Part shown: in pieces, positions 45,544 to 60,965 of the stretch
Layout: each line of letters begins with the position of its first letter
Position numbering within the stretch: the stretch's first letter is position 1
DNA from: Desulfoglaeba alkanexedens ALDC
Lineage (GTDB): Bacteria > Desulfobacterota > Syntrophobacteria > Syntrophobacterales > DSM-9756
Direction of reading: 5' to 3'
DNA length: 64,000 nt
Assembly (NCBI RefSeq): GCF_005377625.1
Contig: NZ_CP040098.1
Span: 744,001-808,000 of the forward strand
Notes under the pieces: model-generated
Seen by the model: only the letters and a program-made list of their open reading frames with translations
Told to the model about the DNA's origin: nothing
Databases searched by the model: none
Made by a program: the position numbers and the translations under genes

Positions 45544-46320
45544 TCACCGCGATCTCCGGATGATATCCAGGAACGGGTTCGGACCCGAAGGAGCGGCCGC
45601 GGTGCCCCCGCCGGCCTGGCCCCGGCTCTGCTGGGCCCGGCGCAGCCCTTCCATGAGCGGGTTGGTCACATCCCGTTGCGGCGTCCCCGCCTGGCCCGCG
45701 GAACCCGATGGGTTGTCCCCGCCCTGCTTGGCCTCCGCCGGCCCCTTCTCTCCGACCACCGCCACACCGTTCTCTGCCGCAGCCCCCTGAGCCTGCCCGC
45801 CGGACGGCTTCCCGGTAACTCCCGGCATTACCCTTCCTCTCACGTTCACCCGCGGCTGTTGCACCGCTTCGCCGCCCCCGACAACGGCCGGCTCCGGTAC
45901 GGGCGGCGGTTCGGGGCGCTTTTTCCCGCCGCCGTAGAGCGGCAGCCTCAGATCTCCGTCTTCACCGCTCAACAACAGGTAGTTGGGTCCGATTTCCACT
46001 ATGGAAAACCCATTGATGGCGTCTCCTTCCTTCAGCAGGCCGCCTTCCGCCGGCTGATCCACGCCTCCTCTGCCCCTGGTCTTTTCCTGGACCAACGCCT
46101 TCTTCCCGTCCGGCGTAATGATGATCCCTGTAAACAAAAGTTCCCCTTCCAGCCGTTCCGCCTCGGGCGATTTCACTTCCGCCGCCTCTTCCGGCCCTGG
46201 AAGAAAAATATGCTTTTCCACCATGGGCGGCACCTCCAGGGCACGGGCCGCAAGCGGAAGCGCAGCCAGAACCGCCGTAAACCCTACAACCTGGAACCTC
46301 TGCATGGTCTTTCGCCGCAT
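45544..46320 (-). CDS. gspC: T2SS inner-membrane protein GspC-like
   Basis: 258 residues. The N-terminus (MQRFQVVGFTAVLAALPLAA) is a signal peptide or anchor, and residues ~55-130 match the GspC homology region (GELLFTGIIITPDGKKALVQ then GLLKEGDAINGFSIVEIG). The proline/glycine-rich C-terminal half lacks a PDZ or coiled-coil domain. GspC links the secretin GspD to the inner-membrane platform in the periplasm. ATG 46320 follows AAGGAGATGCGAG. It is separated from gspD by 325 bp containing repeat A, unlike the tightly overlapping rest of the operon. The symbol is by position and domain and is moderately secure. Confidence 0.75.
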   Translation of the reverse strand: MRRKTMQRFQVVGFTAVLAALPLAARALEVPPMVEKHIFLPGPEEAAEVKSPEAERLEGELLFTGIIITPDGKKALVQEKTRGRGGVDQPAEGGLLKEGDAINGFSIVEIGPNYLLLSGEDGDLRLPLYGGGKKRPEPPPVPEPAVVGGGEAVQQPRVNVRGRVMPGVTGKPSGGQAQGAAAENGVAVVGEKGPAEAKQGGDNPSGSAGQAGTPQRDVTNPLMEGLRRAQQSRGQAGGGTAAAPSGPNPFLDIIRRSR

Positions 46321-46645
46321 CTCGCATCTCCTTTTCGTCGAAGACATCCTGCGGGCAAAGCGTCTGACCGATCATGAACCATCTATAGCACGAATCACGT
46401 ATAGCACGAATGAGGCCGTACGGTCCGCACGGAATGCATGATGATTTGCAAGCTTCCTCCCCCCGGTGTGATTTTCCCCCTCGTTCACAAGCTGAAGCTT
46501 GGGAACGAGGGATGATTCGTCCACGCTCCATCTGTGGCCATCGGTGAAATCCGGGGTCAAAGACATGATCGGGGCCGCCGTGGCGGCATGACGTCGTGCG
46601 ACAACCACCTTTACAGACACCGCCCCCCAACCCCCGAAGAAACGC
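46321..46645. repeat. Repeat B and partial repeat A inside the T2SS operon
   Basis: Repeat B lies near 46483-46512 and the 3' half of repeat A from about 46529 to 46621 (CATCTGTGGCCATCGGTGAA, GCCGCCGTGGCGGC, CAACCACCTTTACAGACAC). A short GAATCACGTATAGCACGAAT tandem is at 46390-46411. The block interrupts an otherwise compact operon between gspD and gspC. Confidence 0.75.
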
Positions 46646-48826
46646 CTACTTCATCTTGGCTTCCTCAGCTTGGATCATCTTCTGCACCTGGCTCACCTTT
46701 TCGGAAAACTCCCGCGTGATCGCCTCCGCTTCGTCCCGGTTATCCACCACTCTGGGGCTGATCAGGATGATCAACTCCGTCTTGGAATTCTCCGTGGACT
46801 GACCGCCGAAGGCGTATCCCAGAACGGGGATGTCCCTCAGGATCGGAATCCCCGACCGGCTGACGGAATCCCGGTTCCTCATGAGCCCCCCGATGATGAT
46901 GGTCTGGCCGTCCTGAACCACAAGCGACGTCTCCGCCTTGCGGCTCACGATGGACGTGGTCTGCAGCTGCACGTCCCGCTCCCCCCGTTCGCTCACTTCC
47001 TGGGAAATGTCCATCTTCACCAGCCCGCTGGAATTGATATGCGGGGTAACGCCCAGGATGATCCCGGTCTTGCGGTACTGGATGCTTCGCGTCACCGTCG
47101 TGGCTTCCTGGCTGGTGACCTCCCCCGTGACGATGGGCACTTCCTCGGCCACTTCGATGTAGGCTTCTTTGTGGTCGGACGCCATGATGTTGGGCGATGA
47201 GAGTATGTTCAGCGACGCGTCTTTTCCCAAGGCACGGATCAAACCGCGAAGAAAGTCGCTGCCGTCGAACACCGCGGCGGTGAAACCGCTTCCCGTTCCC
47301 AGCGGCGTATTGATGCCGTGAGAAATACCGCTGTCCAGAATAGCTTGGCCCGTGTAGTCGTTGCGGTGCCCCTGCAGGAACCATTCGACCCCGTATTCAA
47401 CGGAGCCGCTCAGCGATATTTCCGCGATGATCACATTGATGAGAACCTGCCGGGGAACGATGTCCAGTTTTTCCAATATGCCGAGGACCACCCGGTAGTC
47501 GCGTTCGCTCGCCTTGATCACGATGCTGTTGGTGGTGGGGTCCGCGATGAAGCTGACTTCCCCTCCCAGCTCCCCTGCTCCCACGGAGGCCGATACCCCC
47601 GGAGCCTCGCCGTCGGCTTCCCGGGTGGGCTCCACGATGGTCTCTTCTTCCTTCTTGGATCGCTTCGCCGAACCGGTTTTCCCTCCGTACAGGTACCCCA
47701 GGATATCCGCCAGTTCTTCGGCCGAACCGTTCTGGACGAAATACACGTAGACTCCCGTTCCGGCTCCCGTGGGCTGATCCATGGCTCCGATCCACCGGCC
47801 GACCAGATCCAGCACGGAAGGCCAGCGGCTGGCCACCAGCAGCGCGTTCAGGCTCTTGATCGGATGAATCTGGTAGCTTCCCGGATCGACTCCCGGGCGG
47901 TTGAACAACCCCTGGCCGCTCAACACGGAAGTGAGTTCCGTGGCAATGGCTTCCGACTCCGTATGTTTCAGGGGGATGATGCGCCAGGAGACTTCTTTGA
48001 TGTGGTTGACGTCCAGCGCGTTGACGATGCTGATAACCTTGTTCACGTTGGCCCGGGTGTCCGTGATGATGAGGGTGTTGCTGGTGGCATCGGCGACGAC
48101 CACCGCGCCGGGGGACAGGAAAGGCCGGATGTTGGTGGCGGCGGTGCCGGCGGAGAGGTACCGGAGCCTCACCAGGCGGGTGATGTCCCCGGGGCCTTCG
48201 GCCGTGTCCCCGACCAGCGGCGTAGACGTGCCGGTTCCCGCGCCGAGGTTCTTACGAACGATCTTGAAAAGGTTTCCGGGACCCGGAACGATGGCGAGGT
48301 TGCTCAGCTGGAGCACGTCGTTCAGAACGTCCACGTATTCCATCACCGTGTAGGTGCCTTTGAGGTTGAAGGTGACGTTCGCCTGAATGCTGGGGTCGAT
48401 CACGTAGTTGACGTTGAAAAGCTGAAAGAGGGTGGCGTCCAGGACTTCGTAGATATCCGCGTTGTCGAACGCCAGCTCCAAGGGGATTCCCCGGTCCTCT
48501 TGGGGGCCCTCGGGCCTTGCCGATTCGGCGGGAGGACGCACGGGCTGATTGCGCGGAACGGGTTCCGCCCTGTAGGATGCGCCCTGAATCGGGGTCACGG
48601 CCTCCGGTTCCTCGGACATCCCAACCGGCGTGATGCGACCGCCGGAAGGAGACGGCTCTTGCACTTTCCGGGAAACCTCGGCGCCGCTCGGCGGCCTTCG
48701 TGCGGAACCCGGCGGTTCCGGTCTGCCGGGCCACGTGGCGCAACCCGCCAGGGACAGCAACACCGCGATGCCCAGGCCCATGCCGGCATATCTCATGAAA
48801 GACCGATGCTTCCTGTGAACGTTCAT
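46646..48826 (-). CDS. gspD: T2SS secretin GspD (outer-membrane lipoprotein)
   Basis: 726 residues. A lipoprotein signal ends LLSLAGC (Cys ~29). The N0 domain begins LELAFDNADIYEVLDATLFQ (about 113), N1-N3 repeats follow (RLRYLSAGTAATNIRPFL; IIPLKHTESEAIATELTSVL; VYFVQNGSAEELADILGYLY), and the secretin core ends with GVTPHINSSGLVKMDISQEV and VVQDGQTIIIGGLMRN. It forms the outer-membrane channel. The lipid anchor suggests pilotin-independent targeting. Its start overlaps the gspM stop (ATGA). Confidence 0.93.
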   Translation of the reverse strand: MNVHRKHRSFMRYAGMGLGIAVLLSLAGCATWPGRPEPPGSARRPPSGAEVSRKVQEPSPSGGRITPVGMSEEPEAVTPIQGASYRAEPVPRNQPVRPPAESARPEGPQEDRGIPLELAFDNADIYEVLDATLFQLFNVNYVIDPSIQANVTFNLKGTYTVMEYVDVLNDVLQLSNLAIVPGPGNLFKIVRKNLGAGTGTSTPLVGDTAEGPGDITRLVRLRYLSAGTAATNIRPFLSPGAVVVADATSNTLIITDTRANVNKVISIVNALDVNHIKEVSWRIIPLKHTESEAIATELTSVLSGQGLFNRPGVDPGSYQIHPIKSLNALLVASRWPSVLDLVGRWIGAMDQPTGAGTGVYVYFVQNGSAEELADILGYLYGGKTGSAKRSKKEEETIVEPTREADGEAPGVSASVGAGELGGEVSFIADPTTNSIVIKASERDYRVVLGILEKLDIVPRQVLINVIIAEISLSGSVEYGVEWFLQGHRNDYTGQAILDSGISHGINTPLGTGSGFTAAVFDGSDFLRGLIRALGKDASLNILSSPNIMASDHKEAYIEVAEEVPIVTGEVTSQEATTVTRSIQYRKTGIILGVTPHINSSGLVKMDISQEVSERGERDVQLQTTSIVSRKAETSLVVQDGQTIIIGGLMRNRDSVSRSGIPILRDIPVLGYAFGGQSTENSKTELIILISPRVVDNRDEAEAITREFSEKVSQVQKMIQAEEAKMK

Positions 48827-49431
48827 CCGCGACCCCGCTGCGGCCTTATCGTCAACGACCCGGCCTGGAAACGCCGGCCGGGTTCCATGTAAAGGGTTCC
48901 CAACCGCAGAGAAACCACCAGGCTGGCTTCCCGCGTCCGCTGGTAGGTCACCCGCAAAGACTCCACCCGCACGGCCTTATCGAATGTCTCCAGGAATTGC
49001 AAAAGCTCCGCAAGCTGCTGCATGTTCATCAGGAGCTGGAACTCGATGCGGGCCACCGGGTAGTCCCGCCATTTGCCCGGAGCCACTTCGGTATAGCGGC
49101 GAACCACGGCCCCGGTCTTTTCGAAATGAGCCTGAAGCGCCGACTGGATCTCGGCGTTGACTTCTTCCGGGGTGCTCCCCTTGGGAAGCAGCCGGCTCAC
49201 CAGGGCCACCTGCCGCGTGAAATCGGCTCCCGACCCCCGCGATTTTTCGGCCTGAGCCAGTTCCGCGGCCAGCTTTTTCGCTTCGACCTGCAGGCTCGTG
49301 ATTTCCGTCTCCAGTTCTTCCAGGGTTTCGGTTCGAGGCCCATAGACCCGGGCCCACCAGATGAGGGCGAGCGTCACGGCGCACGCGCAAACGAGGCCCC
49401 ACCGTCGGGTTTTCTTACTGAGTGCCGGCAT
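48823..49431 (-). CDS. gspM: T2SS GspM-like inner-membrane protein
   Basis: 202 residues with one N-terminal membrane helix (LVCACAVTLALIWWARVYG), then a coiled coil (LEELETEITSLQVEAKKL) and a PilO/GspM-type ferredoxin-like periplasmic domain. GspM pairs with GspL to anchor the ATPase. The start overlaps the gspL stop by 17 nt. The symbol is by position and topology. Confidence 0.78.
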   Translation of the reverse strand: MPALSKKTRRWGLVCACAVTLALIWWARVYGPRTETLEELETEITSLQVEAKKLAAELAQAEKSRGSGADFTRQVALVSRLLPKGSTPEEVNAEIQSALQAHFEKTGAVVRRYTEVAPGKWRDYPVARIEFQLLMNMQQLAELLQFLETFDKAVRVESLRVTYQRTREASLVVSLRLGTLYMEPGRRFQAGSLTIRPQRGRG

Positions 49432-50758
49432 GGCTGCGCAACCTTATGGTCAGATTGAACTGCTCGCTGCCCTCCGCAAAACGGCTTACGGATCCCTGGA
49501 GTTTCACCTCTTCGAAGAGCTCCGATGCTCTCAGCCCTTCGATGACCTTGAGGGCGTCGGGGGCGCGGCATCGCAGGTTGAGGGCGTCCCCTTCGTACTG
49601 GACGCTCGGAAACCAGGTCCCCGCGGGAAGGAGGCGCGCCGCTTCGTTCAGAGCCGTGTAAAGCGGGTGCCTGTCACGGTGATAGGCGTTGACGTCTTCC
49701 ACCGCCTTGCGGACTCTCGCCAGTTCTTCTTCGTTTCGGCGGATCGGTTCCAGGCGCTTCTTGATTTCCTGGATCCGGAGCGTCAGTTCCTGCGCATCGC
49801 GGCGCATCGCCTCGATGCGCCGATCCGCGTGCCAGGTCCAGGACCCGGCCGCCAGGAAACCGCAAAGAATCAGCGGGATGATGATTTTTCCAGGCTGAAA
49901 CGTCTTGATCCGGGTGGGAGACGGGTCCACTTTCAAGCGCTGCCAGTCGCCCACGCCCACCGAAGCCACGGCCACCGCCGGGTTTTCGGCGATTCCCGGA
50001 GCCGGTGCAAGCCGGTTCCGGGGCGGCGCGGGATCCAACGAGGAACCGACACCATCCCACCGGAACAGCGGAACCGAAGGGTCGCTAAGCCGGGACGCCA
50101 GCAGCGTTTGCGCCACATCCGCCGGGTCGGAACCCGGCTCCGACGTCCAGACCGCGGAAAAGACCATGCCTCGGGATTCGAAGGCAGCCAGTTCGCAGTG
50201 CTTTCCCCGCTGCTCCAGCACGGCCGCGGGAACCGGATACCCTTGCAGCACGAACCATCGGGCCAGCCCGAAAGAAAAGGGAAACAGGCCCGCCAAGGAC
50301 CGCTCATGACCCGATTGGCCTATCACTTCCAGGTAAGGATCCAGCACCCGCCTGGGAGCGTAAACGAAAAGAACGTGAACCGGCCCCCGCCCCTTTCGCC
50401 ACAAATGAACGTCAAAGTACACGTCCTCGACGGGGAGATGGCTGTAAAGGGGCAGACTGTTCTCGACGGACGCCAGGGCGTCTTCCAGCGGAAGAGGAGG
50501 CAGCGTGAAGTCCCTGCAAAAAAAAAGCGATCGGGGCAGGCCGACGAAAAGCTCCCGGTTTCGGCGGGACGGCACCCGTTCCAGCCAATGCTTCAAGGCG
50601 GGGGGCCCGCCCACATGGAAGGACGCAAACGCTTCTTCATCCCCCAGGGAACCCAGCGGCCGCCACCGGCCCAGGCGCCGGGTGAAGGCGGCTGTGAAAA
50701 GTTTCTCTTCTTCCACGTAAACGCCGATGATCTCTCGAGCCATAACCCCTGGTTTCAT
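49415..50758 (-). CDS. gspL: T2SS GspL-like protein
   Basis: 447 residues. A cytoplasmic actin-like region (~1-280; REIIGVYVEEEKLFTAAF) is followed by one membrane segment at about 300 (IIIPLILCGFLAAGSWTW) and a periplasmic coil plus ferredoxin-like fold ending SRFAEGSEQFNLTIRLRS. GspL binds GspE in the cytoplasm and GspM in the membrane. The product also resembles a PilM-PilN fusion. ATG 50743 (MAREIIGVYV) is an alternative start with GGGGTT just upstream. Confidence 0.8.
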   Translation of the reverse strand: MKPGVMAREIIGVYVEEEKLFTAAFTRRLGRWRPLGSLGDEEAFASFHVGGPPALKHWLERVPSRRNRELFVGLPRSLFFCRDFTLPPLPLEDALASVENSLPLYSHLPVEDVYFDVHLWRKGRGPVHVLFVYAPRRVLDPYLEVIGQSGHERSLAGLFPFSFGLARWFVLQGYPVPAAVLEQRGKHCELAAFESRGMVFSAVWTSEPGSDPADVAQTLLASRLSDPSVPLFRWDGVGSSLDPAPPRNRLAPAPGIAENPAVAVASVGVGDWQRLKVDPSPTRIKTFQPGKIIIPLILCGFLAAGSWTWHADRRIEAMRRDAQELTLRIQEIKKRLEPIRRNEEELARVRKAVEDVNAYHRDRHPLYTALNEAARLLPAGTWFPSVQYEGDALNLRCRAPDALKVIEGLRASELFEEVKLQGSVSRFAEGSEQFNLTIRLRSHAGTQ

Positions 50759-50853: not shown

Positions 50854-51726
50854 TCACTCCGCTTCCTCACGGGCCTGGAGAAAGGCCTGGTGAAGGCCCT
50901 CGATCTTTCGCGAACCTGAAGCAGCGTCCACGAAGACCAGCGCGTACCAGTACCCCGCTCCCCGGCCCGGGATGATCACTTCCACGCGGCGGGCAACGCC
51001 GCCCAGAACCGTCAGCCCGTCGGAAAGCGAATCGGGAAGCAAGCGGCTCCCGGCCGTCTCTTCCTCGTCATCCACGCCGGCTTCCTCCTCCGGCCGGTAC
51101 GCCGCTCGAAGCCTGGACGACGGATCGCCCCAGAACAAATCGGCGGTGACGCCTTTGACGAGAAGCAGTTCCGTGAGCAGCTTGAAGGGGCCGTTGGCCG
51201 GAACGGCGAAAGGATCCCCGTCTTCGTAGTCGCTCTCCTCCGCTCCATTCACACGGACCAAATGGTCCGCGTCCCTCCAGTCCAGTATCGCATCGCTCAC
51301 CCGTTCCCCGTCGTCCCGTTCCCCGTCGTCCCGTTCCCGGTCGTCCCGTTCCCGGTCCTCGGTGAGCGTCAGGACCAGCTGGCGGATTTCCTCGTCGCCG
51401 GCCGTATTCAAGTTGATCCTTTCGCCTTCGTCGCTCACGGTCACCCACACGGAGAAACCCCCGGGTTCCAGCCGGACCCATTCCTCGGGCCGTTCCACTT
51501 CCCCCGGAAGCGGCCACCCCGCCGTTGCGACCAGGTCTACCACCGACAGCAGGGCTTCCCGGTACTGAAGGGCCCGCCAGCCGTTGGACGCGAGATCAGC
51601 GCGCTGGCGATGCCTCCCGGCGAAATCTCCGGCCATGACCGTCATGAGTACCAGCGCCCACAGCACGAAAACAATGACCGTTCCGTCCCGGCGCCTCACC
51701 CGCCTCGGCGCACCCCCTTCTTTCAC
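50854..51726 (-). CDS. gspK: T2SS minor pseudopilin GspK
   Basis: 290 residues from GTG 51726, which overlaps the gspJ stop (GTGA). The prepilin-like start is RRRDGTVIVFVLWALVLMTV, with the hydrophobic helix lacking Glu at +5, as usual for GspK. A helix-hairpin-helix region (INLNTAGDEEIRQLVLTL) and the GspK alpha-domain follow (LLTELLLVKGVTADLFW). Between them lies an unusual RERDD/GERDD repeat encoded by a 15-bp tandem repeat (51300-51360). GspK tips the pseudopilus. The longer frame from 51954 overlaps gspJ and was not used. Confidence 0.85.
   Translation of the reverse strand: MKEGGAPRRVRRRDGTVIVFVLWALVLMTVMAGDFAGRHRQRADLASNGWRALQYREALLSVVDLVATAGWPLPGEVERPEEWVRLEPGGFSVWVTVSDEGERINLNTAGDEEIRQLVLTLTEDRERDDRERDDGERDDGERVSDAILDWRDADHLVRVNGAEESDYEDGDPFAVPANGPFKLLTELLLVKGVTADLFWGDPSSRLRAAYRPEEEAGVDDEEETAGSRLLPDSLSDGLTVLGGVARRVEVIIPGRGAGYWYALVFVDAASGSRKIEGLHQAFLQAREEAE
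51295..51362 (-). repeat. 15-bp in-gene tandem repeat in gspK
   Basis: Four tandem units of about 15 bp (CGTCCCGTTCCCCGT-like on the plus strand) encode RERDD, RERDD, GERDD, GERVS. The array lies between the two structured regions of GspK and could vary by whole in-frame units. Confidence 0.8.
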
Positions 51727-52382
51727 AGGTCGGACGTCCTCGTCAGGTAATACCATGTGCGGACTTTGCCACCCTTTTCGTCCAGTTGAAACCGCACCCT
51801 CACCACCGACGGCACATTGCCGGGCGTCTCGCAGCTCCAACGATCCTCCCAATCCTCGGAAGCATCCAAATCCACCGGCTCTTGATCGGAAAAGCGCAGA
51901 TCGAAGCCCCGCACCCCCCGGATGATGCTCACCGGTTCGAGCTCTCCCTCCCAAAGATCCCCCAGCGGGTGGTGGCGGTCGTCGATGTGCTCGCGGCGGG
52001 TCACGATCTGCTGGTAAAGAAGCAGCGCCTCGGATGCCTCATCGTAGACGCAGGTCACCCGCAGAAGCCCCTTCGCCCGGGATCCCTGCGGCGCGTAGCC
52101 GGTGAAGAACGAAAAACCGTGAGGCTCCCCGCAGAACGGCAGAAGCGCCTCCCCGCCTTCGGCTCCGAAGGATGCTTTCGGTACCAGAGAAAGGAGCTGC
52201 CGGTCCAGGACCGTCGGTATGGCGTGGATGAGCGGCAGGCTCTCTTCCTGCTCGGAACCCCGCTGCCATACGCTGAGCGCCAGTCTCAACGCCAGGGTCA
52301 TCACCAAGACGATCACGGCGACCAGCGTCATGGCAATGAGTACTTCAACCAGCGTGAACCCGCTTTTCCTCGATCCGGCCAT
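51723..52382 (-). CDS. gspJ: T2SS minor pseudopilin GspJ
   Basis: 219 residues. The prepilin motif SGFTLVEVLIAMTLVAVIVL gives cleavage at G8/F9 with Glu at +5. A tail in the GspJ fold follows (RVRFQLDEKGGKVRTWYYLT). ATG 52382 was chosen so that the prepilin leader is short; the longer frame reads through gspI. It complexes with GspI and GspK at the pseudopilus tip. Confidence 0.88.
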   Translation of the reverse strand: MAGSRKSGFTLVEVLIAMTLVAVIVLVMTLALRLALSVWQRGSEQEESLPLIHAIPTVLDRQLLSLVPKASFGAEGGEALLPFCGEPHGFSFFTGYAPQGSRAKGLLRVTCVYDEASEALLLYQQIVTRREHIDDRHHPLGDLWEGELEPVSIIRGVRGFDLRFSDQEPVDLDASEDWEDRWSCETPGNVPSVVRVRFQLDEKGGKVRTWYYLTRTSDL

Positions 52383-52395
52383 GTTTCGGTTCCGC

Positions 52396-52848
52396 TCATT
52401 CCCGCCGGCGCCAGCGCTGGACGCAGTAATCGCGGCTCGACCCTTCGCTCTCATACCTCACGCACAACTCGAGCTCCACCATGTTCGGAACCTCGACGGG
52501 TTCGTAATCTTCGCGGAGCGAAATCTCCAGGGGGGCGGCCGTCACCGTGTAGGACCAGCCCTCTTCCCCCGCCACTTCACCTTCCGCGCTTTCACGGCGC
52601 ACGGCTTCCAGCATCAGCGCTTCATCGGAAAGCAGGTTGGAAGCGATGCGCGTCGCTTCCGCCAGCTGGTCGGAACGAAAGGCGAGGCGGCTCGAAAGGG
52701 AGAAGTTCTGGAAAACGACGGCCAGGCAGATGCTCAGGATCACCAGGGAAACCAGGACCTCCATGAGCGTGAAACCGCCGTGCGGTCGCCATGGGATCGC
52801 GGGCGGCGCCTGCGATGGGTTTCCCCGGCGGACGTCACTCATCGGCAT
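52396..52848 (-). CDS. gspI: T2SS minor pseudopilin GspI
   Basis: 150 residues with an extended leader before the prepilin motif GGFTLMEVLVSLVILSICLA (cleavage about G25/F26, Glu at +5). A GAGG ribosome site is 6 nt before ATG 52848; ATG 52842 is also possible. The start overlaps the gspH stop. It is a core of the pseudopilus tip complex. Confidence 0.85.
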   Translation of the reverse strand: MPMSDVRRGNPSQAPPAIPWRPHGGFTLMEVLVSLVILSICLAVVFQNFSLSSRLAFRSDQLAEATRIASNLLSDEALMLEAVRRESAEGEVAGEEGWSYTVTAAPLEISLREDYEPVEVPNMVELELCVRYESEGSSRDYCVQRWRRRE

Positions 52849-53287
52849 TCACAACCTCGGCCAGACCGGTGATCATGTCGATTCGAATCGTGTGGGGACG
52901 CCTGTCGCCTATGGAAAACACGAGTCTACCCCCACTCGAAGAGCCGTCCGGATAGAACACGATCGCGCGGCGATCGCCGCCGGCCGTAGCGATGCCTTCG
53001 CCTTCGATGAGCATCGCTTCCGGAATGGCGACGGAGCCTTTCCGGCCCCCGACCCAGCAGCGGCGTTCGTCCTGGGAAATGTAGAGGGCCGTGGGCTCTC
53101 CCCGCCCCACCGCCGCTCGGCGTGCGGCTCTCGCCAGTTCGAGGAACTCCTGGACGAACCGCCGGTCCTCCCGGCCGCTCAACCCTCGGCCCACGTGCAT
53201 GAAGACCAGGGAACCGGCCAGGGAGACAATCACCAGCACCACCAGCAGTTCCAGCAGCGTGAAACCCTTTTCAGAAGGCGATTTCAT
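52835..53287 (-). CDS. gspH: T2SS pseudopilin GspH
   Basis: 150 residues with the prepilin motif KGFTLLELLVVLVIVSLAGS (cleavage G8/F9, Glu +5). The beta-rich C-terminus (ALYISQDERRCWVGG, AIVFYPDGSSSGGRLVFSIG) is typical of GspH and not of GspG, which has a conserved calcium-binding GWGxP-like tail. The start overlaps the gspF stop by 17 nt. Its identity as H matters because no GspG gene lies between F and H. Confidence 0.85.
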   Translation of the reverse strand: MKSPSEKGFTLLELLVVLVIVSLAGSLVFMHVGRGLSGREDRRFVQEFLELARAARRAAVGRGEPTALYISQDERRCWVGGRKGSVAIPEAMLIEGEGIATAGGDRRAIVFYPDGSSSGGRLVFSIGDRRPHTIRIDMITGLAEVVNADE

Positions 53288-54476
53288 TGATTCCGAATAT
53301 GGCGGAAAGCATGGAAATGACCATGCCTCCGATCACCAGGCCCATGAAAAGAATGGCGGCGGGTTCCAGCATGGCGAGGTAGCGCTTGATCTTGACCTGG
53401 ATCTGGGCGTCCAGTTCATCGGCGGTGGCGGTGAGCATGGCACCCAGTTCCCCGGTTTCTTCACCGAGCGCCGTCATGTGCACGACCACGACCGGAAAGA
53501 GGCCCGTTTCCTTGATAAGCAGGCTGATGCGCTTGCCTTGGCGCACCTGCTGGTAGATGTGTTCCACGGCTTCTTTGACCACGTGATTTCCGGCGACGTC
53601 CCGAACGATGGCCAGCGCCTTGAGCAGCGGCACGCCGCTGGAAACCAGGGTGCCGAGCGTCCGCGCGAAACGGCTCACTTCCAGGTCGAGAAAGAGGGAG
53701 CCCAAGAGCGGAAGCCTGATGAGCCAACGATCGAGGCGCCGTTTTCCAAGGGATGTCCGAACCGCATGCCAGGCGGCGCCGGCGGCGGCGCCGGCGGCCA
53801 GCACGAGCGCCCACCACCACTCGCGAAAGAGGTCGCTCGCGAGGATCAGCATCCGGGTGGAAAAGGGAATGTCGTGGCCCATGTCGACGAAGATTTCGGC
53901 AAACCGCGGGATCACGAACCCCAGGATGGCCACCACCGAGAGGATGCCCACGCCCACGAGAAGCGAAGGATAGATGGCCGACGAAACGACGAACCGCTTG
54001 ATCTCTTCGTTCCGCTCCAAGAATGCGGCGAGCTTTCCCATGACCTCGTCCAAAACGCCGCCCACTTCGCCGACCCGCACCATGTTCACGTAGAGTTCAC
54101 GGAACTCCGGCCTTGCCGCCATGGCGTCGGAAAGGCTCTTGCCGCCCCGGAGCCCCTCTCTCAACTCCAGGGCCATGTCCCGGACGGGTTTTTCGGTGGC
54201 CGCATCCGCGATGATAAAAAGCGCCCGGTCCAGGGGGATCCCGGCCTTGGTAAGATGCGCCAGTTCCTGGGTGAACCGAAGGAGCCCCACCCCCTTGACA
54301 CGGCCCCTGCGGAACCGAAACGCCACCGAGCGCTTCGGTGCACCGTTGACCCAGCGGATGAGGTGAAGGCCACGGGTCTGGAGCGAGAGAAGGAGAGCGG
54401 CCCGGTCCCTCGCTTCCTCGGCGGCCACGATCCTCCGGCCCCGGGAATCGAGTGCTTCGTAGGAAAACTTCTCCAT
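53271..54476 (-). CDS. gspF: T2SS inner-membrane platform protein GspF
   Basis: 401 residues with two repeated GspF cytoplasmic domains (LLRFTQELAHLTKAGIPLDR and VSRFARTLGTLVSSGVPLLK) and three membrane segments (~165-190, ~215-235, and LFMGLVIGGMVISMLSAIFG at the C-terminus). GspF is the platform on which the pseudopilus assembles. The start overlaps the gspE stop by one base (TGATG). Confidence 0.92.
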   Translation of the reverse strand: MEKFSYEALDSRGRRIVAAEEARDRAALLLSLQTRGLHLIRWVNGAPKRSVAFRFRRGRVKGVGLLRFTQELAHLTKAGIPLDRALFIIADAATEKPVRDMALELREGLRGGKSLSDAMAARPEFRELYVNMVRVGEVGGVLDEVMGKLAAFLERNEEIKRFVVSSAIYPSLLVGVGILSVVAILGFVIPRFAEIFVDMGHDIPFSTRMLILASDLFREWWWALVLAAGAAAGAAWHAVRTSLGKRRLDRWLIRLPLLGSLFLDLEVSRFARTLGTLVSSGVPLLKALAIVRDVAGNHVVKEAVEHIYQQVRQGKRISLLIKETGLFPVVVVHMTALGEETGELGAMLTATADELDAQIQVKIKRYLAMLEPAAILFMGLVIGGMVISMLSAIFGINEIAF

Positions 54477-56089
54477 CAGCGGGTCACCCTCAGCACTTCT
54501 TCATAGGTCGTGATGCCGCGGCGCACCTTGTCCAGCCCGTCCAGGCGCAGGGTCGTCATCCCGCTTTCGACGGCTTTCTGCGCGATTCCGATCCGATCGG
54601 CTCCCCTGAGGATCTCCCGCTGAATCGCTTCATCCAGCGGAAGAAATTCGAAGATGCCCAGCCGGCCGCGGTAGCCCGTTCCACCGCAACCGTCGCAGCC
54701 TTTCCCGCGCCAGTAGGAACCGTTCACAAGGTCCGCAGAGACTCCGAATTCATCCGCCAGGGCCTGCCGCTCCTCGTCGCTCACCGGCACCTCCTCCCGG
54801 CAGTCGGGGCAGATCTTTCGCACCAGCCGCTGAGCGAGCACCGCCACGACGGCGGAGGTGATCATGAACCGTTCCACGCCCATGTCTTCCAGGCGGAGGA
54901 TGGCCCCGGGGGCGTCGTTGGTGTGGAGCGTGGAAAAGACCATGTGGCCGGTCAAGGCGGCCTGGATCGCGATTTCCGCGGTTTCCCGGTCGCGGATTTC
55001 CCCCACCAGCATCACGTCGGGGTCCTGGCGGAGAAAGGACCTCAGGCTGTAAGCGAACGTCAGTCCGATCTTCGACTGGACCTGGACCTGGTTGATGCCT
55101 TCCAGCTGGTATTCCACCGGGTCTTCCACCGTGACGATCTTCTTGTCGGGCTGGTTGATGGCGCTCAGCGCCGCGTAGAGCGTGGTGGTCTTTCCGGAAC
55201 CCGTGGGGCCGGTCACCAGGAGGATGCCGTAGGGGAGCACGATGGTGGCCTGAAAGCGCTGAAGGAGGTTGGAAGGAAACCCCAGGCGGTCCAGTTCGAA
55301 AAGCACGTCTTCCTTGTGCAGCAGCCGCAGCACCAGACTTTCACCGAAAACGGTCGGGAGCGACGAAACGCGGATGTCCAGTTCCTGTCTGGCCATCTTG
55401 AACTTGATGCGCCCGTCCTGGGGCAGCCGCATTTCCGCGATGTTCATCTTGGCCATGAGCTTGATGCGGGACGTGATGGCGGCCTGGAACCGCTTGGCCA
55501 GGCTTTCTTGGTCGTGCAGCACGCCGTCGATCCGGTAGCGCACCTGAACCCCCTGGCGGCGCGGTTCGATGTGGATGTCGGAAGCCCCGAGATCCACCGC
55601 CCGGGAAATCAGGTGATTCACCAGGCGGATGATGGGCCCCTCGGACGCCATGTCTTTCAGTTGCTCCGGGTTGTCCCAGAGTTGCTCCTCCAAGCTCAGC
55701 CCTTCGCCTTCCCCCGCCTCGTCTTCGCCGAGCACCACTTCCGTCTCGTACCACCGGTACGTAAACTGCGACAGAAGGTCTTCCGACGCCTTGAAGACAG
55801 CCACGGGTTTCCCGTATACCGCGGCGATGATTTCCCGAGTATTGAAATCCAAGGGATCCGCCATAGCCACCTTCACCGCCTCCCGGGAATCGTCCAGCAC
55901 CAGGAAACGAAACCGCTTCATGAAAGGGAGGGGAAGCGGATTGAGCCCCGGCGGGTTGTCGGGAAATCCGTTTTCATCGATTTCCGGGACGTTCAGCACG
56001 GGAACTTCCGTCCGGGGAAAGGCCTCCGCCGGCTGACGCTCGTTGTCCGGAGCCGACCGCCCGATACGCTTCAATAGATTTTGCATCAT
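54476..56089 (-). CDS. gspE: T2SS assembly ATPase GspE
   Basis: 537 residues. An N1-type domain is followed by the ATPase: Walker A GPTGSGKTTT (~293), Asp box VEYQLEG, Walker B QDPDVMLVGEIRDRETAEIA and His box VFSTLHTNDA. The C-terminal four-Cys zinc motif is complete (ICPDCREE ~423 and KGCDGCGGTGYRGR ~461). It powers pseudopilus assembly. It is first in the minus-strand T2SS operon, so a promoter should lie just above 56089. ATG 56086 (one codon in) is equally possible. Confidence 0.93.
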   Translation of the reverse strand: MMQNLLKRIGRSAPDNERQPAEAFPRTEVPVLNVPEIDENGFPDNPPGLNPLPLPFMKRFRFLVLDDSREAVKVAMADPLDFNTREIIAAVYGKPVAVFKASEDLLSQFTYRWYETEVVLGEDEAGEGEGLSLEEQLWDNPEQLKDMASEGPIIRLVNHLISRAVDLGASDIHIEPRRQGVQVRYRIDGVLHDQESLAKRFQAAITSRIKLMAKMNIAEMRLPQDGRIKFKMARQELDIRVSSLPTVFGESLVLRLLHKEDVLFELDRLGFPSNLLQRFQATIVLPYGILLVTGPTGSGKTTTLYAALSAINQPDKKIVTVEDPVEYQLEGINQVQVQSKIGLTFAYSLRSFLRQDPDVMLVGEIRDRETAEIAIQAALTGHMVFSTLHTNDAPGAILRLEDMGVERFMITSAVVAVLAQRLVRKICPDCREEVPVSDEERQALADEFGVSADLVNGSYWRGKGCDGCGGTGYRGRLGIFEFLPLDEAIQREILRGADRIGIAQKAVESGMTTLRLDGLDKVRRGITTYEEVLRVTR

Positions 56090-56656
56090 GGGGAACCCGT
56101 TACACCCCCTTCACTCAGGATCCTTTGAAAAGGCCGGACGCGCGACAGCCCGAAACCGCCATGTCTTCCGCGAGGATCAAAAGTGGAACCCCTCGCCTCC
56201 TATGCGGAGCCGGCCGTTGCGCCCTTCAACGGCCGAGGAGGCTTCCGGGCGCACGTCTAATCCGTTCAACCCCCACTTTTGGAACCAATATGTCACATTT
56301 TCACGTCAAAGGCCAAGAGCTTCACTCAAAAGATGCGATGGAACGTGGAGCACGGCCGATCGCTGATTTCGTGACCGGATCGGCGCGGGCCCATCCGGCA
56401 AGGTAACGGCATCTTCCACCTTGTTCCCAAGCTCGACCATCCACCTTGTTCCCAAGCTCGACCATCCACCTTGTTCCACCTTGTTCCCAAGCTCGACCAT
56501 CCACCTTGTTCCCAAGCTCCAGCTTGGGAACACAACTGTGTAGAAGCTCCAGCTTCGATCACCATAAGGAGGCGAAGCCGGAGCTTGGGAACGAGGGATG
56601 ATTCGTCCAGGCTCCACACCTGTGGCCATCGGTGAAATCCGTGGACAAAGACATCG
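56090..56656. repeat. Upstream region of the T2SS operon with repeat B array
   Basis: Positions 56090-56410 hold no supported gene and probably contain the gspE promoter. Positions 56413-56530 are an array of four ACCTTGTTCCCAAGCTCGAC-like repeat B half-units in tandem, followed by a full B palindrome and a partial repeat A near 56618-56656. Confidence 0.6.
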
Positions 56657-56900
56657 GTGTGTCTCAAGACACGTGTCGCACCAAGCCAAGCACATCCACA
56701 CGGGGCCACCCACATGGTTCTTGCCCCGCTTCCGTCCCCGCGCTAGGTTTGCATCATAACCCGTCGGCGCTCCACCGTGGATACATTCACCAAGGGGCGT
56801 CGGATGCGCGGCGCGTTTCCCTGTGGCGCCTGCAGGTCACGGGTCGATGCGGGTGCTAACCCAAATGGGCATCCACAGATTACACAGATTGACACAGACC
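56657..56900. repeat. Long direct repeat D1 (left border of the integron island)
   Basis: About 244 bp from GTGTGTC..AAGACACGTGTCGCA to CCAAATGGGCATCCACAG and the first CACAGATT units of repeat A. It is repeated in direct orientation with few differences at 61943-62188. It encloses an arm distinct from the usual repeat A arm (CACCGTGGATACATTCACCA and TTTCCCTGTGGCGCCTGCAG). Confidence 0.8.
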
Positions 56901-57017
56901 TTAATCCGTGAGATTGCGTCTATACATAAAAATATCATACCGCAGGTATCATCTTGAATTTCATTCGCTTTTGTGCTATAGGGTCTCCTGTCAAACTTTC
57001 ACCCGCCAGGTGCACTC

Positions 57018-57762
57018 ATGAGAAGGATCGAGATGGAGCCATCTTCGAAGGCCTTCTACAGCGGGTACTCGGGCCTGGTCCTCGTGGGCAATCTGATCAA
57101 CGGCACCACGGACCTCTGCGAACGGTTGGAAAAGGAAGTTCCGGGAAAGAAGGGGTGCCGCGGACGTACCAGAACTACGACGGATACGCGCCGATTGGGG
57201 CCTACCTCGGCCAGAAGCGATGGTGTCTGGGCATGGAGCTTCGCCCGGGGTCTCAGCATTCCCAGAACGGATTTGTTGACTTTTTGCGCAAGGCATTGGT
57301 GTGTACCCGGAGATCACCCGCAAGCCCCTCTTGGTGCAAACGGACTCGTCTCACGATGCTCTGGAAACGCTTGTGGAGCTTCGCCGACACCCCAATGTGA
57401 GCTTTATCGTCCCATGGAATCCACCGGACCGCCTTTACCGGCGTGATCGGGCCTTCATGGAGGGCCGTTTAAGTGAGCCCCGGCCCGGCAAAAAAGTGGC
57501 GATCTTCAGCACGTGGGTGACACGACACTATGGATAGAGAACCTATCGGTTTCGCCTGGTGATCCGGGTCACCGAGAGGATATCGGATGCCAAGGGGCAT
57601 AGGCTGATCCGGCCCGATATCAAGCTGGAGGGCTGGTGGACGTCCCTTTCCGTCCATGAGGATCAAGTGATCCGCTTGTACGAGAAGGGGGTCTGAGTGA
57701 GCCGTTTTATAGTGAGATCACGTCCGATCTGGACTTGGAGCGATGGCCCTGCGGAATAGCGG
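57018..57762 (+). pseudogene. IS1380-family transposase, multiply frameshifted
   Basis: Pieces in different frames together make an IS1380 transposase. They are the N-part (SGLVLVGNLINGTTDL), YQNYDGYAPIGAYLG (matching the family's YxGYdGYaPI block), MELRPGSQHSQNGFVDFLRK, PLLVQTDSSHDALETL, and FRLVIRVTERISDAKGHRLI with a terminal EKGV. At least three frameshifts or stops and a deletion near 57150 make it inactive. Confidence 0.75.
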
Positions 57763-58064
57763 TCAGGTGCAGCGCCTTGTTGGACGAACCCGCTACGCGG
57801 CGGGAAAAACCACACTTCATGCCTCTAACTGTTCAATCAAAACTTCCTGGTTATTCCTTCAAGTTGGGTTTACTCTTCATGTCGGCCATTATGATCCGAT
57901 TCTTCGAACGCCGGATAAGTTATGCAAATCTTCAATTTATTTCACTTTTTCTCTAATTTAACACCGGATGAATTGTGTAAGCCTCTAATTTATTTCGTTT
58001 TTCTCTAATTACTGTCCGAAAAAGTACTTACATATATGGCATAACCTATGCCAAGTTCGGGCTC
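57763..58064. other. Non-coding AT-rich spacer
   Basis: No gene or known repeat is recognised. The last part (57940-58020) contains two near-copies of TTTATTTC(G/A)(C/T)TTTTTCTCTAAT spaced about 60 bp apart. It separates the IS1380 relic from the first attC-like site. Confidence 0.45.
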
Positions 58065-58129
58065 GTCCAACCACAGGATAAGATCGTGGATCGCTTCGCT
58101 CTCAGGATCTATCCTTATTCGTTAGGCAG
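58065..58129 (-). other. attC-like site 1 (distal end of cassette array)
   Basis: On the plus strand it starts GTCCAAC (RYYYAAC) and ends GTTAGGC (GTTRRRY), 65 bp. Inner arms AGGATAAGATC and GATCTATCCT can pair, giving the hairpin of an integron attC. The hicA stop lies just upstream on the minus strand, as expected for a gene cassette. Confidence 0.65.
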
Positions 58130-58133
58130 TTTC

Positions 58134-58349
58134 TCAGAGATCCTCAAGCGTGAGGCCCGTGCGCTTGGCGATGCGTGCCAGCATGCGGGGGCCAATCTCT
58201 TCTGAGTCATGAAACGCGAAGACGTAATCTGGCCAGCCAGGTCGCGACAGAATTCGGTGAGATGTTTCAGATTGACGCTTGATCGTCCAGCCAATTCGCA
58301 GCAAGGCGGCCAGCACAAGGCGAGCTTTAGCTGACGGCCATTGACTCAT
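58134..58349 (-). CDS. hicA: HicA-type mRNA interferase toxin (set 3)
   Basis: 71 residues. The double-stranded RNA-binding-like fold is visible: ARLVLAALLRIGWTIKRQSE then LSRPGWPDYVFAFHDSEEIG and ARIAKRTGLTLEDL. The usual catalytic His near GSHxxL is altered (ETSHRILS). HicA degrades mRNA and is held by HicB. It overlaps hicB by 4 nt (ATGA), on the minus strand in the cassette array. Confidence 0.8.
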   Translation of the reverse strand: MSQWPSAKARLVLAALLRIGWTIKRQSETSHRILSRPGWPDYVFAFHDSEEIGPRMLARIAKRTGLTLEDL

Positions 58350-58546
58350 GCCGGCATCGCGAAGACTTCATGCAATTCGGGGATTGCCTCACCGTGTTCC
58401 AGTCGATCAGCCAGCACGCGCAAAGCTAAAGCTTTGACTTTTGAAATCGCTTCTTCACGACTCTGCCCATAGATCATCACACCGGGTAGATCGGGAATTT
58501 CGGCTATCCACCGACCATCTTCCTCGCGTTCAATTTCGATATTCAT
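58346..58546 (-). CDS. hicB: HicB-type antitoxin (set 3)
   Basis: 66 residues, a partial RNase H-like fold of HicB: IEIEREEDGRWIAEIPDLPG and YGQSREEAISKVKALALRV. It lacks a C-terminal DNA-binding domain, as in short HicB proteins. AGGTGTGAAGG precedes the ATG. It neutralises HicA of set 3. Gene order B then A is common in this family. Confidence 0.82.
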   Translation of the reverse strand: MNIEIEREEDGRWIAEIPDLPGVMIYGQSREEAISKVKALALRVLADRLEHGEAIPELHEVFAMPA

Positions 58547-58682
58547 CCTTCACACCTCCGATACACACATTAGCGGAGTTTTCCCAGAAAAATCCGCCTT
58601 TTCCGCTGCGGTGAGCTTTCGTTTAGGCTTTGCCATTAAAAGAGGTCGCCCCCTCCTACCCGGTTTTGACGATCAAATGACC

Positions 58683-58949
58683 TCAGCGCGTCTTTATTAT
58701 TCTCCAGTACTTGATGCCAGGCACCCCTCCCTGAGACTCGGGACATCGCCTCTCGTGTATGTCAGAGGCGTTTGCTCCATAAACATACCCACAGATTGTA
58801 CATTCAATCTTGTAGGCATACTGTCCCCGATCGGTCCCCGGCACTCCATAATAATCGCAACACTTCTGACCGTGACGATTGACGTATCCTATCTCAGTTG
58901 TCTCGCCTTTCCCGTGTTGCCAGTCAACAGGACTATCGATGTCCTTCAT
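58683..58949 (-). CDS. Small Cys-containing hypothetical protein
   Basis: 88 residues (MKDIDSPVDWQHGKGETTEIG ... GIKYWRIIKTR). It has CC, CTICGYVYGANAS and RRCPESQGG, which look like a zinc-binding knuckle with the last Cys pair broken (CPES where CPxC is expected). ATG 58949 follows AAAAAGGATAATC; six extra upstream codons are possible. It lies alone between attC-like sites. Function unknown. Confidence 0.6.
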   Translation of the reverse strand: MKDIDSPVDWQHGKGETTEIGYVNRHGQKCCDYYGVPGTDRGQYAYKIECTICGYVYGANASDIHERRCPESQGGVPGIKYWRIIKTR

Positions 58950-58971
58950 GATTATCCTTTTTCCCAACTGC

Positions 58972-59023
58972 CACAGTTGAGGCGGACCGGCCTTTTGGGC
59001 GTCGCCTCAAGCGAAAGTTAGCG
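58972..59023 (-). other. attC-like site 2 (degenerate)
   Basis: On the plus strand it runs from TCCCAAC to GTTAGCG, with arms TTGAGGCGG and CGCCTCAA pairing around a GC-rich loop. The core boxes deviate at one position each. It lies between the Cys-rich protein and the MNT/HEPN remnant, where a cassette junction is expected. Confidence 0.45.
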
Positions 59024-59061
59024 CAGGGCTTTCCAAAAGTCGGACGAACTGAGTTAATGTG

Positions 59062-59220
59062 TCAACCTGCCTCTTTTTCAATCAGGCTGGCAACACAGCC
59101 AATGAGCTCTTCTGGATTTGAGATCCATGGCAGCACCTGTGATTCTTCAAAGCTGACAAAGTCGATGTAGTCACCCTCTTGGCGTCTCTCAAAAAGATCA
59201 TTGTAGATCCTGGCTAAATC
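59062..59220 (-). pseudogene. HEPN toxin, C-terminal remnant
   Basis: The minus frame DLARIYNDLFERRQEGDYI then DFVSFEESQVLPWISNPEEL and a TGA resembles the C-terminal helices of HEPN-domain toxins. The N-terminal ~80 residues with the RxxxxH motif are missing: the frame continues directly, out of phase, from the truncated MNT gene, so a deletion joined the two. Confidence 0.6.
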
Positions 59221-59483
59221 CTGATGTCGCTATTCCATTCATCGTGGTTCCGTACAATTGATGAGATCACCTCCCCCGTCTCCCACTCCAGCTCATAGAG
59301 TCTATGACGGATTCGATCCGTGCGTTCATCGCTGACAGGGCCGTCCACAAGGATCAGGAAGTCCCAATCTGATTCTGATAGAGCATCACCACGGGAGCGG
59401 CAACCGTAAAGAATGATCTCTGCATCAGGCTCCGCCTGATGCACAGCCTCCTTTATCTGTTCGAGCAATTCTTCTCTATTCAT
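59214..59483 (-). CDS. MNT-type nucleotidyltransferase antitoxin (C-terminally altered)
   Basis: 89 residues. The nucleotidyltransferase signature is IILYGCRSRGDALSESDWDF with the two Asp of DWDFLIL, as in MNT antitoxins, which AMPylate HEPN toxins; the usual GSRxRG has Cys for Ser. ATG 59483 follows ACGAGGTATTCAT. The last residues (NSDIRI) replace the usual tail because of fusion to the HEPN remnant. Whether it is still active is uncertain. Confidence 0.68.
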   Translation of the reverse strand: MNREELLEQIKEAVHQAEPDAEIILYGCRSRGDALSESDWDFLILVDGPVSDERTDRIRHRLYELEWETGEVISSIVRNHDEWNSDIRI

Positions 59484-59507
59484 ATGAATACCTCGTATTC
59501 TCACGGG

Positions 59508-59566
59508 CGCTAACGACGCAAATCAACTGCCGCTGTAAGCGGTCGGCTGCATTTGCCTTGTTAGGC
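59508..59566 (-). other. attC-like site 3
   Basis: 59 bp on the plus strand from CGCTAAC to GTTAGGC. The inner arms GCAAATCAACTGCCGCT and AGCGGTCGGCTGCATTTGC pair with the extra unpaired bases typical of attC. The RelE-like gene's TAA lies within the GCCTAAC box, as in true cassettes. Confidence 0.72.
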
Positions 59567-59839
59567 GTGCCTTAGCTGCTTCAATATATTATCATAATCC
59601 GTATGTGAACCGACCCAGAACCAGATTATTTCACTGTCCTGCTGTATGCCTAAAGCACGATACTCTCTTGAAATACGAACTGCATAAATCGGCCGCTTCG
59701 AATGTACTCGTTTGAAGTGTAACCCCGGATAATAAGGGTCTTTTTTGAACTGTGCATAAGCCTCTCTCGCCTGCCTTTGGGTTTCCTTCGGCAGATCTGC
59801 CAGGAGTTTACGAAAACGCTCTGCCGTACGGGATATCAC
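59561..59839 (-). CDS. RelE/ParE-type toxin
   Basis: 92 residues (ISRTAERFRKLLADLP, PYYPGLHFKRVHSKRPIYAV then RISREYRALG and IWFWVGSHTDYDNIL), matching the small RelE/ParE fold with basic residues for mRNA or gyrase interaction. It overlaps its antitoxin by 4 nt. Antitoxin-first order and attC on the 3' side fit a self-contained cassette. Confidence 0.8.
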   Translation of the reverse strand: MISRTAERFRKLLADLPKETQRQAREAYAQFKKDPYYPGLHFKRVHSKRPIYAVRISREYRALGIQQDSEIIWFWVGSHTDYDNILKQLRHA

Positions 59840-60054
59840 AGCTCGTCAATATCCAAAGTTTTTGTCTTGCCTTGTGCATGCTCTGCAAGTGCCTCATCCG
59901 CCAGTTTATCTAATACATCTTCCGACTCAGCGAATGCTTTTTCCCATTTTTTATCGGATATGATTTCCTCAATCAGCCATCGGGCCAAAGCATTTTGTTC
60001 CAATTCCGACAACTTTGACGCCTCTTCAAAAGCTTTTTCAAGAAGTTGTGTCAT
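59836..60054 (-). CDS. Antitoxin partner of the RelE/ParE-type toxin
   Basis: 72 residues, acidic and helical (LLEKAFEEASKLSELEQNAL then ARWLIEEIISDKKW and ALAEHAQGKTKTLDIDEL). The C-terminal segment is typical of antitoxins that wrap their toxin. TTGGAGGTAGACT precedes the ATG. Overlap with the toxin start supports co-translation. Confidence 0.78.
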   Translation of the reverse strand: MTQLLEKAFEEASKLSELEQNALARWLIEEIISDKKWEKAFAESEDVLDKLADEALAEHAQGKTKTLDIDEL

Positions 60055-60079
60055 AGTCTACCTCCAATATTTTTTATAC

Positions 60080-60150
60080 GCCTAACGACCAAGCTCGGTG
60101 GTGCGGATGGAGCGCAGCGGAATCTCCATCCAGTGCAGCGCACTGCATAA
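60080..60150 (-). other. attC-like site 4 (partial, read into hicA)
   Basis: On the plus strand GCCTAACGACC begins at 60080, followed by arms GGATGGAG and CTCCATCC and a small GTGCAGCGCAC palindrome. The right GTTRRRY box is not clear. The sequence is translated as the last 21 residues of hicA set 1, so the toxin probably lost its native stop and reads into the site. Confidence 0.5.
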
Positions 60151-60372
60151 TTTTTCAAGAAAATCGTCTACTGTCATTCGAGCCTGTTTTAAAATATGAG
60201 ACAATGTTGAACGTTTAATCGGTTTGTGGGCAGGTACAATGATTTTAAAAGTCTCATTACCGACATGCTTTTGCAGTCGAATATGTGATCCACGTTGACG
60301 AACGATTACCCATCCGTCACGTTGTAACCCTTTGATCACCTTCTCGTAATTCAAGCTGGGGATTTTACTCAT
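60082..60372 (-). CDS. hicA: HicA-type toxin (set 1), with attC-derived tail
   Basis: 96 residues. The HicA core is VIKGLQRDGWVIVRQRGSHI (catalytic His in GSH), then KIIVPAHKPIKRSTLSHILK and MTVDDFLEKL, where most family members end. The extra 21 residues (CSALHWMEIPLRSIRTTELG) come from the attC-like site. It overlaps hicB by 4 nt. Confidence 0.83.
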   Translation of the reverse strand: MSKIPSLNYEKVIKGLQRDGWVIVRQRGSHIRLQKHVGNETFKIIVPAHKPIKRSTLSHILKQARMTVDDFLEKLCSALHWMEIPLRSIRTTELGR

Positions 60373-60572
60373 ATGGCTAATTCTAACGATTCGGCATCAG
60401 GAATAGCTACAATATCATCCTCCACAGGCTCTAAATAAAGTTCGATTGCTTCTTTAATATTTCTTACGGCTTCCTCTTTTGTATCACCTTCGGATATGCA
60501 GCCAGGCAATGAGGGAACAATTACAGTATATCCGCCATCATCACTTGGTTCGAGATAAATTTTGATTTTCAC
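60369..60572 (-). CDS. hicB: HicB-type antitoxin (set 1)
   Basis: 67 residues from GTG 60572, preceded by TGGAGG with 7-nt spacing. HicB core IKIYLEPSDDGGYTVIVPSL then PGCISEGDTKEEAVRNIKEA. The frame is also open upstream into the hicA remnant (60573-60728), so a 119-residue fusion starting at ATG 60728 is formally possible. The GTG start is favoured by its ribosome site and the family length. Confidence 0.8.
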   Translation of the reverse strand: MKIKIYLEPSDDGGYTVIVPSLPGCISEGDTKEEAVRNIKEAIELYLEPVEDDIVAIPDAESLELAI

Positions 60573-60728
60573 ATTACTACCTCCACTTACAGTTATAATT
60601 TCTATATGACGTGGCCCCGCTTCTATAACTCCAGTCTTTGGATTAATCCACAGCGAGTGTGATACCCATTCCCTTTTTAAATAACAAGCGGCTATTCGCA
60701 ACTTTCGTTCTAAATCCCTGCGTTTCAT
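60573..60728 (-). pseudogene. HicA-type toxin (set 2), truncated
   Basis: The frame MKRRDLERKLRIAACYLKRE then WVSHSLWINPKTGVIEAGPR reproduces the first ~45 residues of the HicA variant with GSSHSLW (here WVSHSLW). Beyond HIEI it diverges and merges in frame with hicB set 1. The start overlaps hicB set 2 by 4 nt. Confidence 0.7.
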
Positions 60729-60943: not shown

Positions 60944-60965
60944 AATTTTACCTCCATTTGCATTG

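Follow-up and report, generated by a model that had tools for sequence, protein, structure and literature searches.

Known type II secretion systems

Canonical type II secretion systems (T2SS; gsp, xps or xcp) are encoded in the order E-F-G-H-I-J-K, with the prepilin peptidase gene located elsewhere. XqhA of Pseudomonas aeruginosa is a T2SS component from a machine of multi-locus or mixed origin. In the part of the survey by Denise et al. (2019; PMC6668835) drawn on here, the T2SS pilins are located in the middle of one locus, the chlamydial T2SS is called chimeric, and an exchange of parts between scattered systems is suggested for recipients of similar layout.

The cluster described here, from Desulfoglaeba alkanexedens ALDC (Desulfobacterota, Syntrophobacterales), contains the same E, F, H, I, J, K, L, M and D genes in the usual order and, as in canonical systems, a gspG is present in the genome and the prepilin peptidase gene lies at another site. 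Unlike in those systems, gspG is found 177 kb away from the cluster and has an ancestry different from that of the other genes. The core parts being present, the T2SS is ordinary in kind; its layout and probable history are new. It resembles the XqhA and chlamydial cases in that the machine is made of parts of different origin or locus, but what is set apart here is the major pseudopilin, and this throughout a whole order. The order looks like the case of part exchange outlined in the portion of the survey cited above (PMC6668835), with a resident filament subunit and a foreign machine. The literature searched yielded no account of gspG being detached in the Syntrophobacterales.

Organisation of the gsp cluster

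The window, by which we mean the whole stretch of 64,000 nucleotides analysed, contains a cluster of genes in the order E-F-H-I-J-K-L-M-D-C, all on the minus strand, in which gspG is absent as judged by profile searches and the coordinates of the open reading frames. The first gene is gspE (residing at 54476–56089), coding for the assembly ATPase, with no gspG ahead of it; its product scores 615 bits with TIGR02533, just below the cut-off of 630, and is over the cut-off for Pfam T2SSE. It is followed by gspF (53271–54476), coding for the inner-membrane platform, with 367 bits for TIGR02120 (cut-off 424) and a Pfam T2SSF match over the cut-off. The best models for these two proteins are those of GspE and GspF, both under their equivalog cut-offs. 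In these Pfam and NCBIfam searches, and in those with the window's GspF, the proteins of the window were used without their first methionine.

Four minor pseudopilin genes come next. The first, gspH (52835–53287), is discussed below. The second is gspI (52396–52848), assigned from matches to XpsI (31.1 bits) and gspI (27.2 bits), both under the cut-off, an N-methyl match and the order of the orthologues; gspJ (51723–52454) is likewise assigned from a match to PRK08808 (T2SS protein J; 29.5 bits, under the cut-off), an N-methyl match and orthologue order. The fourth, gspK, matches PF21687 with 43 bits, over the cut-off, and its true start is probably located further inside the open reading frame (50854–51954). 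A gspL-like gene (49415–50758) is recognised by a PilN domain (PF05137, over the cut-off), its position and its homology to the L genes of relatives, while gspM (48823–49431) obtains 47.5 bits with GspM_XpsM (cut-off 60). The secretin gene gspD (46646–48826) scores 425 bits with TIGR02517, over the cut-off of 351. The gspC-like gene at the end of the cluster (45544–46347) reaches 14.5 bits with GspC_delta, far under the cut-off; a gene with 38–40% identity occupies the same place beside gspD in two other genomes, G007 and G183 (G000 being the window's own genome in this numbering).

The preliminary description of this DNA, made from the sequence and its open reading frames, had the four pseudopilin-like genes as H, I, J and K, gspF ending at 53271 with an overlap of 17 bp by the next gene, and gspG missing between gspF and gspH. 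Coordinates, profiles and orthologue order bear out the four assignments, the overlap (53271–53287) is seen at the site taken by gspG in canonical clusters, and no GspG is encoded from gspE to gspD. Searches with 70 GspG sequences revealed no GspG remnant in the window and no GspG match within 1.4 kb upstream of gspE; the best match in the window (E-value 0.001) is to the common amino-terminus of gspI, at 52702–52776. A degraded or lost gspG inside the window was ruled out on these grounds. Overlaps of 14 or 17 bp between gspF and gspH recur in 11 of 19 loci of the operon's kin, so the overlap is not a scar.

The gene following gspF

The product of the gene at 52835–53287 scores 62.9 bits with the NCBIfam model of XpsH, 43.5 bits with that of GspH and 19.5 bits with that of GspG, the latter match being limited to the 25 amino-terminal residues, which are common to all prepilins. 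It passes the Pfam GspH profile PF12019 (28.2 bits, cut-off 21) and is under the curated NCBIfam cut-offs for XpsH (160) and GspH (80). Structures in the PDB that match a model predicted by AlphaFold from 12 sequences, with a mean pLDDT of 85, include chain Q of XcpGHIJK, EpsH, FimU (a minor pilin) and Escherichia coli GspH. Profiles and fold both identify the protein as GspH, the name it had been given beforehand, and the same scores and fold exclude that it is a GspG in disguise. gspF is thus followed directly by gspH, and gspG does not occupy its usual position.

Two explanations of this absence had been put forward at the outset, namely that GspG is encoded elsewhere or that GspH takes its role. 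For the latter, in which gspH took over as major pseudopilin and the system needs no GspG, it can be said that gspH comes first among the pseudopilin genes that follow gspF, in the normal place of gspG. It is nonetheless highly improbable, for a true gspG is present in the genome, the protein scores as GspH/XpsH and folds like GspH, EpsH and FimU, and its relatives in operons headed by gspG coexist with GspG in the same operon. The former explanation is right, because one full-length gspG scoring over the cut-off is located outside the cluster.

The solitary gspG of the genome

The sole gspG of the genome is located on the plus strand (G000:C1:620287-620679), 177 kb from gspF. Its product obtains 173 bits with TIGR01710 (cut-off 88.85) and is the only match over this cut-off in the genome; the single PF08334 match is the same gene. 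The search for a stray gspG, proposed in the preliminary description, thus returns exactly one. The open reading frame (L002:9249-9683) is full-length and reads MARTKDRSRLRCRKGFTLIELL...GADGQEGGDDENADVVSWE. It contains the prepilin motif GFTLIE and the GspG carboxy-terminus, GADGQEGG...ADVVSW, with a conserved acidic region; the carboxy-terminal end of GspG binds calcium. Its top relatives in the PDB are all GspG or EpsG chains (E-value 4e-26), and it scores as GspG, not as PilA.

No other T2SS genes were seen among the open reading frames around this gene. In the whole genome there are nine N-methyl matches: the solitary gspG, the H, I and J genes of the cluster, and five genes at 2.44 Mb. 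Near these five, at 2.43 Mb, lies an F gene of the type IV pilus type, whose product is 34% identical to the window's GspF. A pair of F-domain genes is located at 2.82 Mb. Besides these other F-type genes, no second complete T2SS was seen in the genome. The sole prepilin peptidase match (PF06750) is at G000:C1:862758-863003.

A sigma70-like site, TTGACA-18-TAAACT, is located ahead of the solitary gspG, at L002:9159-9188, and agrees in 10 of 12 positions. Among the 37 loci of the order with enough sequence upstream of gspG, 22 have a promoter-like site with at least 9 of 12 positions, where block shuffles give an expectation of 4.8.

Distribution of the detached gspG in the Syntrophobacterales

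GspG, the window's GspF, GspK and GspD were searched for in 97 genomes, 39 of which belong to the order Syntrophobacterales (G000 to G038). GspG is over the cut-off in 37 of the 39 and GspD in 35, all of which also carry GspG. Neither protein is over the cut-off in G003 and G022; the latter assembly consists of about 740 contigs, and matches for F and K are still present in it. Loci were read with home-made profiles. For 35 of the 39 genomes the main T2SS locus was taken, one per genome, and to these were added a second system (in G020) and loci from 12 of the 58 genomes outside the order, chosen mostly for good F matches. In all 34 order loci that can be read past gspF, this gene is followed directly by gspH; one more locus ends at a contig edge. 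Ten of the 12 loci from outside the order read E-F-G-H, one (G083) reads G-E-F-H and one (G091) reads E-F-H, with its gspG 2.4 Mb away. The second system of G020 has its own gspG in place.

Where gspG and gspF are on one contig, they are separated by 177 kb in the window's genome, 219 kb in G015 and more than 0.6 Mb in G031, which we take to be Syntrophobacter fumaroxidans. No conserved partner gene was found beside the detached gspG across the order, and its neighbours differ by family. In the window's family (f1) it has a convergent radical SAM/SPASM gene next to it. In the second group (f2) it is followed by genes for a Roadblock/LC7 protein and a Ras/Arf-like small GTPase, and in the third (f3) it lies between a gene for a radical SAM protein with its own carboxy-terminal domain and that for trigger factor. 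In f2 loci such as L044:9505-12743, a 590-residue protein without a Pfam match is encoded after gspG, together with the Roadblock/LC7 protein and the Ras/Arf-like GTPase. In G002 (L063:3738-6435), gspG is disposed head to head with gspE at a distance of about 340 bp, with F-H-I-J-K on another contig. In the Geobacter-type loci L083, L084, L085 and L087, gspF is followed by gspG and by a second, weakly G-like open reading frame at the place of gspH.

The T2SS of f2 and f3 (Syntrophobacteraceae and relatives) are like that of the window in having the E-F-H order and gspG detached at other loci, but their E/F lineage forms a clade apart from the window's.

Relatives of the operon

When the window's GspF was compared with 395 genomes of the phylum, its nearest kin were found outside the order, in G339, G300, G183, G324 and G163 (55–59% identity); GspF of G001, a member of the same family, is more distant at 53%. 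Of 27 loci read from outside the order, the best 19 all lack a G gene after gspF; among the other eight, six have it, one is cut and one (G344) is without it. The last of these, L187, is a T2SS locus of the other F lineage that also reads E-F-H.

In these kin, gspG is at the head of the operon. GspG was searched for in 20 genomes of the operon's kin (18 of the 19 genomes with the best loci, G387 or its like, and G091), and in 19 of them gspG adjoins gspE, being detached in G091. In 18 of the 20, gspF is located 1.5–1.9 kb downstream on the same contig, and in G206 the arrangement runs across a contig break. The full order in G183, G-E-F-H-I-J-K-L-M-D-C, is that of the window with gspG added at the head. 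The window's E, F, H, I, J, K, L and M have their nearest relatives in such G-headed operons of the same phylum (e.g. in G183, G300 and G339), as do D and C where these were seen; these operons, too, have no gspG between gspF and gspH. In contrast to the window, they have gspG right before gspE, and the window's GspG is not the nearest kin of theirs.

Every operon gene found in both is closer to its counterparts in G183 and G300 than to those in four loci of the order (two f3 and two f2). GspE of the window is 65–66% identical to GspE of G183 and G300 versus 46–48% for the f2/f3 loci, and GspD is 46–48% identical versus 30–37%. Besides its own genome, F genes of the window's type (at least 44% identity) occur in 3 of 38 genomes of the order, all of one family. 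G002 belongs to the same family and has an F of the f3 type, and no genome with both operon types was seen.

Phylogeny of GspG and of the secretion machine

The identities differ strongly between GspG and the machine. Between f1 and f3, GspG is 76.6% identical, GspE 43.9% and GspF 38.4%; over f3 and f2 together, the values for f1 are 76.6–78.7% for GspG, 44% for GspE and 35–38% for GspF. GspE of f1 is thus as distant from that of f2 and f3 (44%) as from that of genomes outside the order (47%). Within the order the identities of GspG and GspE show no correlation (r = -0.016), and therefore trees were built.

In the tree of GspE and GspF combined, from which nine near-identical f3 entries and the second system of G020 were left out, G000, G001, G006 and G007 are located inside the G-headed lineage with 100% SH-aLRT support, and f2, f3, G002 and G091 form a separate clade. 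The order as a single clade is rejected by 203 log-likelihood units (p-AU 2.5e-54). In the GspG tree, made from 131 columns and with mostly weak forks, all GspG proteins of the order group together with that of G091 at a modest support of 89%. A grouping of six f1 GspG proteins with those of the five kin of the operon is rejected (difference of 35 log-likelihood units, p-AU 0.0034), and placing the window's own GspG alone with the operon's kin is marginally rejected (p-AU 0.043); the groups for these AU tests were named after the trees had been seen. Taken as they stand, the trees show the window's operon and its GspG to have different ancestries. The four f1 operons as one clade are not rejected (p-AU 0.07), and they may derive from one import or from several. 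This difference in ancestry, the order-wide arrangement and the existence of kin with gspG before gspE go beyond what had been described for the locus before.

The same conflict between trees would result from hidden paralogy, that is, from an ancestor with both operon types and later losses, or from transfer of gspG instead of the operon. A reading in which the G-less operon and the detached gspG are both inherited vertically, with the conflict coming from ancient paralogous operons or from a transferred gspG, fits with all operons read in the order lacking gspG between gspF and gspH, and with GspG being short and its tree weak. We consider it unlikely, given the 203 log units by which the E and F data reject the order as a single clade, the confinement of window-type F genes to one family that also includes the f3-type G002, and the lack of any genome seen with both types.

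Our preferred explanation, which we regard as quite probable from the comparison of genes and genomes, is that the window encodes a T2SS whose GspG is supplied in trans by the solitary, resident gspG, the operon having been imported without a G gene and having displaced an older machine. An operon of the G-headed lineage would have entered the window's family without its gspG, or would have lost it afterwards, and would have displaced the resident machine, the older form of which would still be seen in G002. The incoming machine would now polymerise the resident, detached GspG of the order. This GspG would be processed by the common prepilin peptidase and inserted in the inner membrane, and E, F, L and M would add it under a tip of H, I, J and K, as in any T2SS, with GspH staying a minor pseudopilin on the tip side. 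That the solitary GspG is polymerised by the window's machine we infer from its being the sole GspG, from the co-occurrence of the two and from the known biology of T2SS.

An arrangement of this kind would explain why these systems would be scored as incomplete when annotated by cluster. The order also lends itself as a natural experiment on the degree to which GspG has to coevolve with the assembly platform.

Genomes with gspG in which no T2SS was found

In G004 and G005 GspG is present, with no GspD over the cut-off, no GspK and an F of the pilus type only. The gspG of G005 (Desulfacinum hydrothermale; L035:9695-10195) is intact, in a genome that is 99% complete. The link of the solitary gspG to the machine is not absolute, because these two genomes keep an intact gene and no T2SS was found in them, which raises the question of a second use for the subunit. 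Faster evolution of GspG in genomes without a T2SS was not significant (lowest p 0.07), with 7 changes in G005 versus 1 to 3 in G007; dN/dS is hardly informative for gspG, synonymous sites being near saturation. With no significant acceleration and near-saturated synonymous sites, G004 and G005 may have lost the machine recently, or GspG may have an additional function in them.

The retention of gspG in these genomes without the markers D, F and K, and without significant acceleration, would agree with a solitary GspG that serves a type IV pilus or some other machine, the window's T2SS being idle or incomplete. So would the Roadblock/LC7 and small GTPase genes next to the f2 gspG, which presumably resemble the MglB/MglA pair steering type IV pili. 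This appears very unlikely in view of the presence of GspG in every genome of the order that has GspD, its profile scores, which are those of GspG rather than of PilA, and the intact operon genes of the window, including a gspD over its cut-off.

Returning to a GspG supplied in trans to the window's T2SS, a broader version can be put forward tentatively, although the odds are against it: the detached gspG may be a free-standing resident around which whole T2SS machines have been exchanged, possibly repeatedly in one family, and GspG may work without a T2SS in G004 and G005, for instance with a type IV pilus. The machine would then be replaceable as a G-less block because gspG is separate from the operon.

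Surroundings of the operon

The surroundings were inspected for traces of a mobile element. No tRNA gene is present in the window. On the gspD side the G+C content of the operon is similar to that of its surroundings, and beside the gspE end it drops from about 63% to 42–55% (57000–62999). Two small open reading frames in this region, 59214–59504 and 59561–59839, resemble on visual inspection a nucleotidyltransferase and a toxin of the RelE type. A direct repeat of 248 bp, with 93% identity, is found upstream of gspE (56655–56898) and 5 kb further on (61939–62186), and in the stretch 44164–44471 a segment of 182 bp is repeated at a shift of 126 bp with 90% identity. Two copies of a dispersed repeat (46489–46566 and 56575–56654, 90% identical) flank the gspE–gspD block on both sides; members of this family are frequent in the window, related copies lying near 946, 8987, 14234, 15695, 17907, 19374 and 31846.
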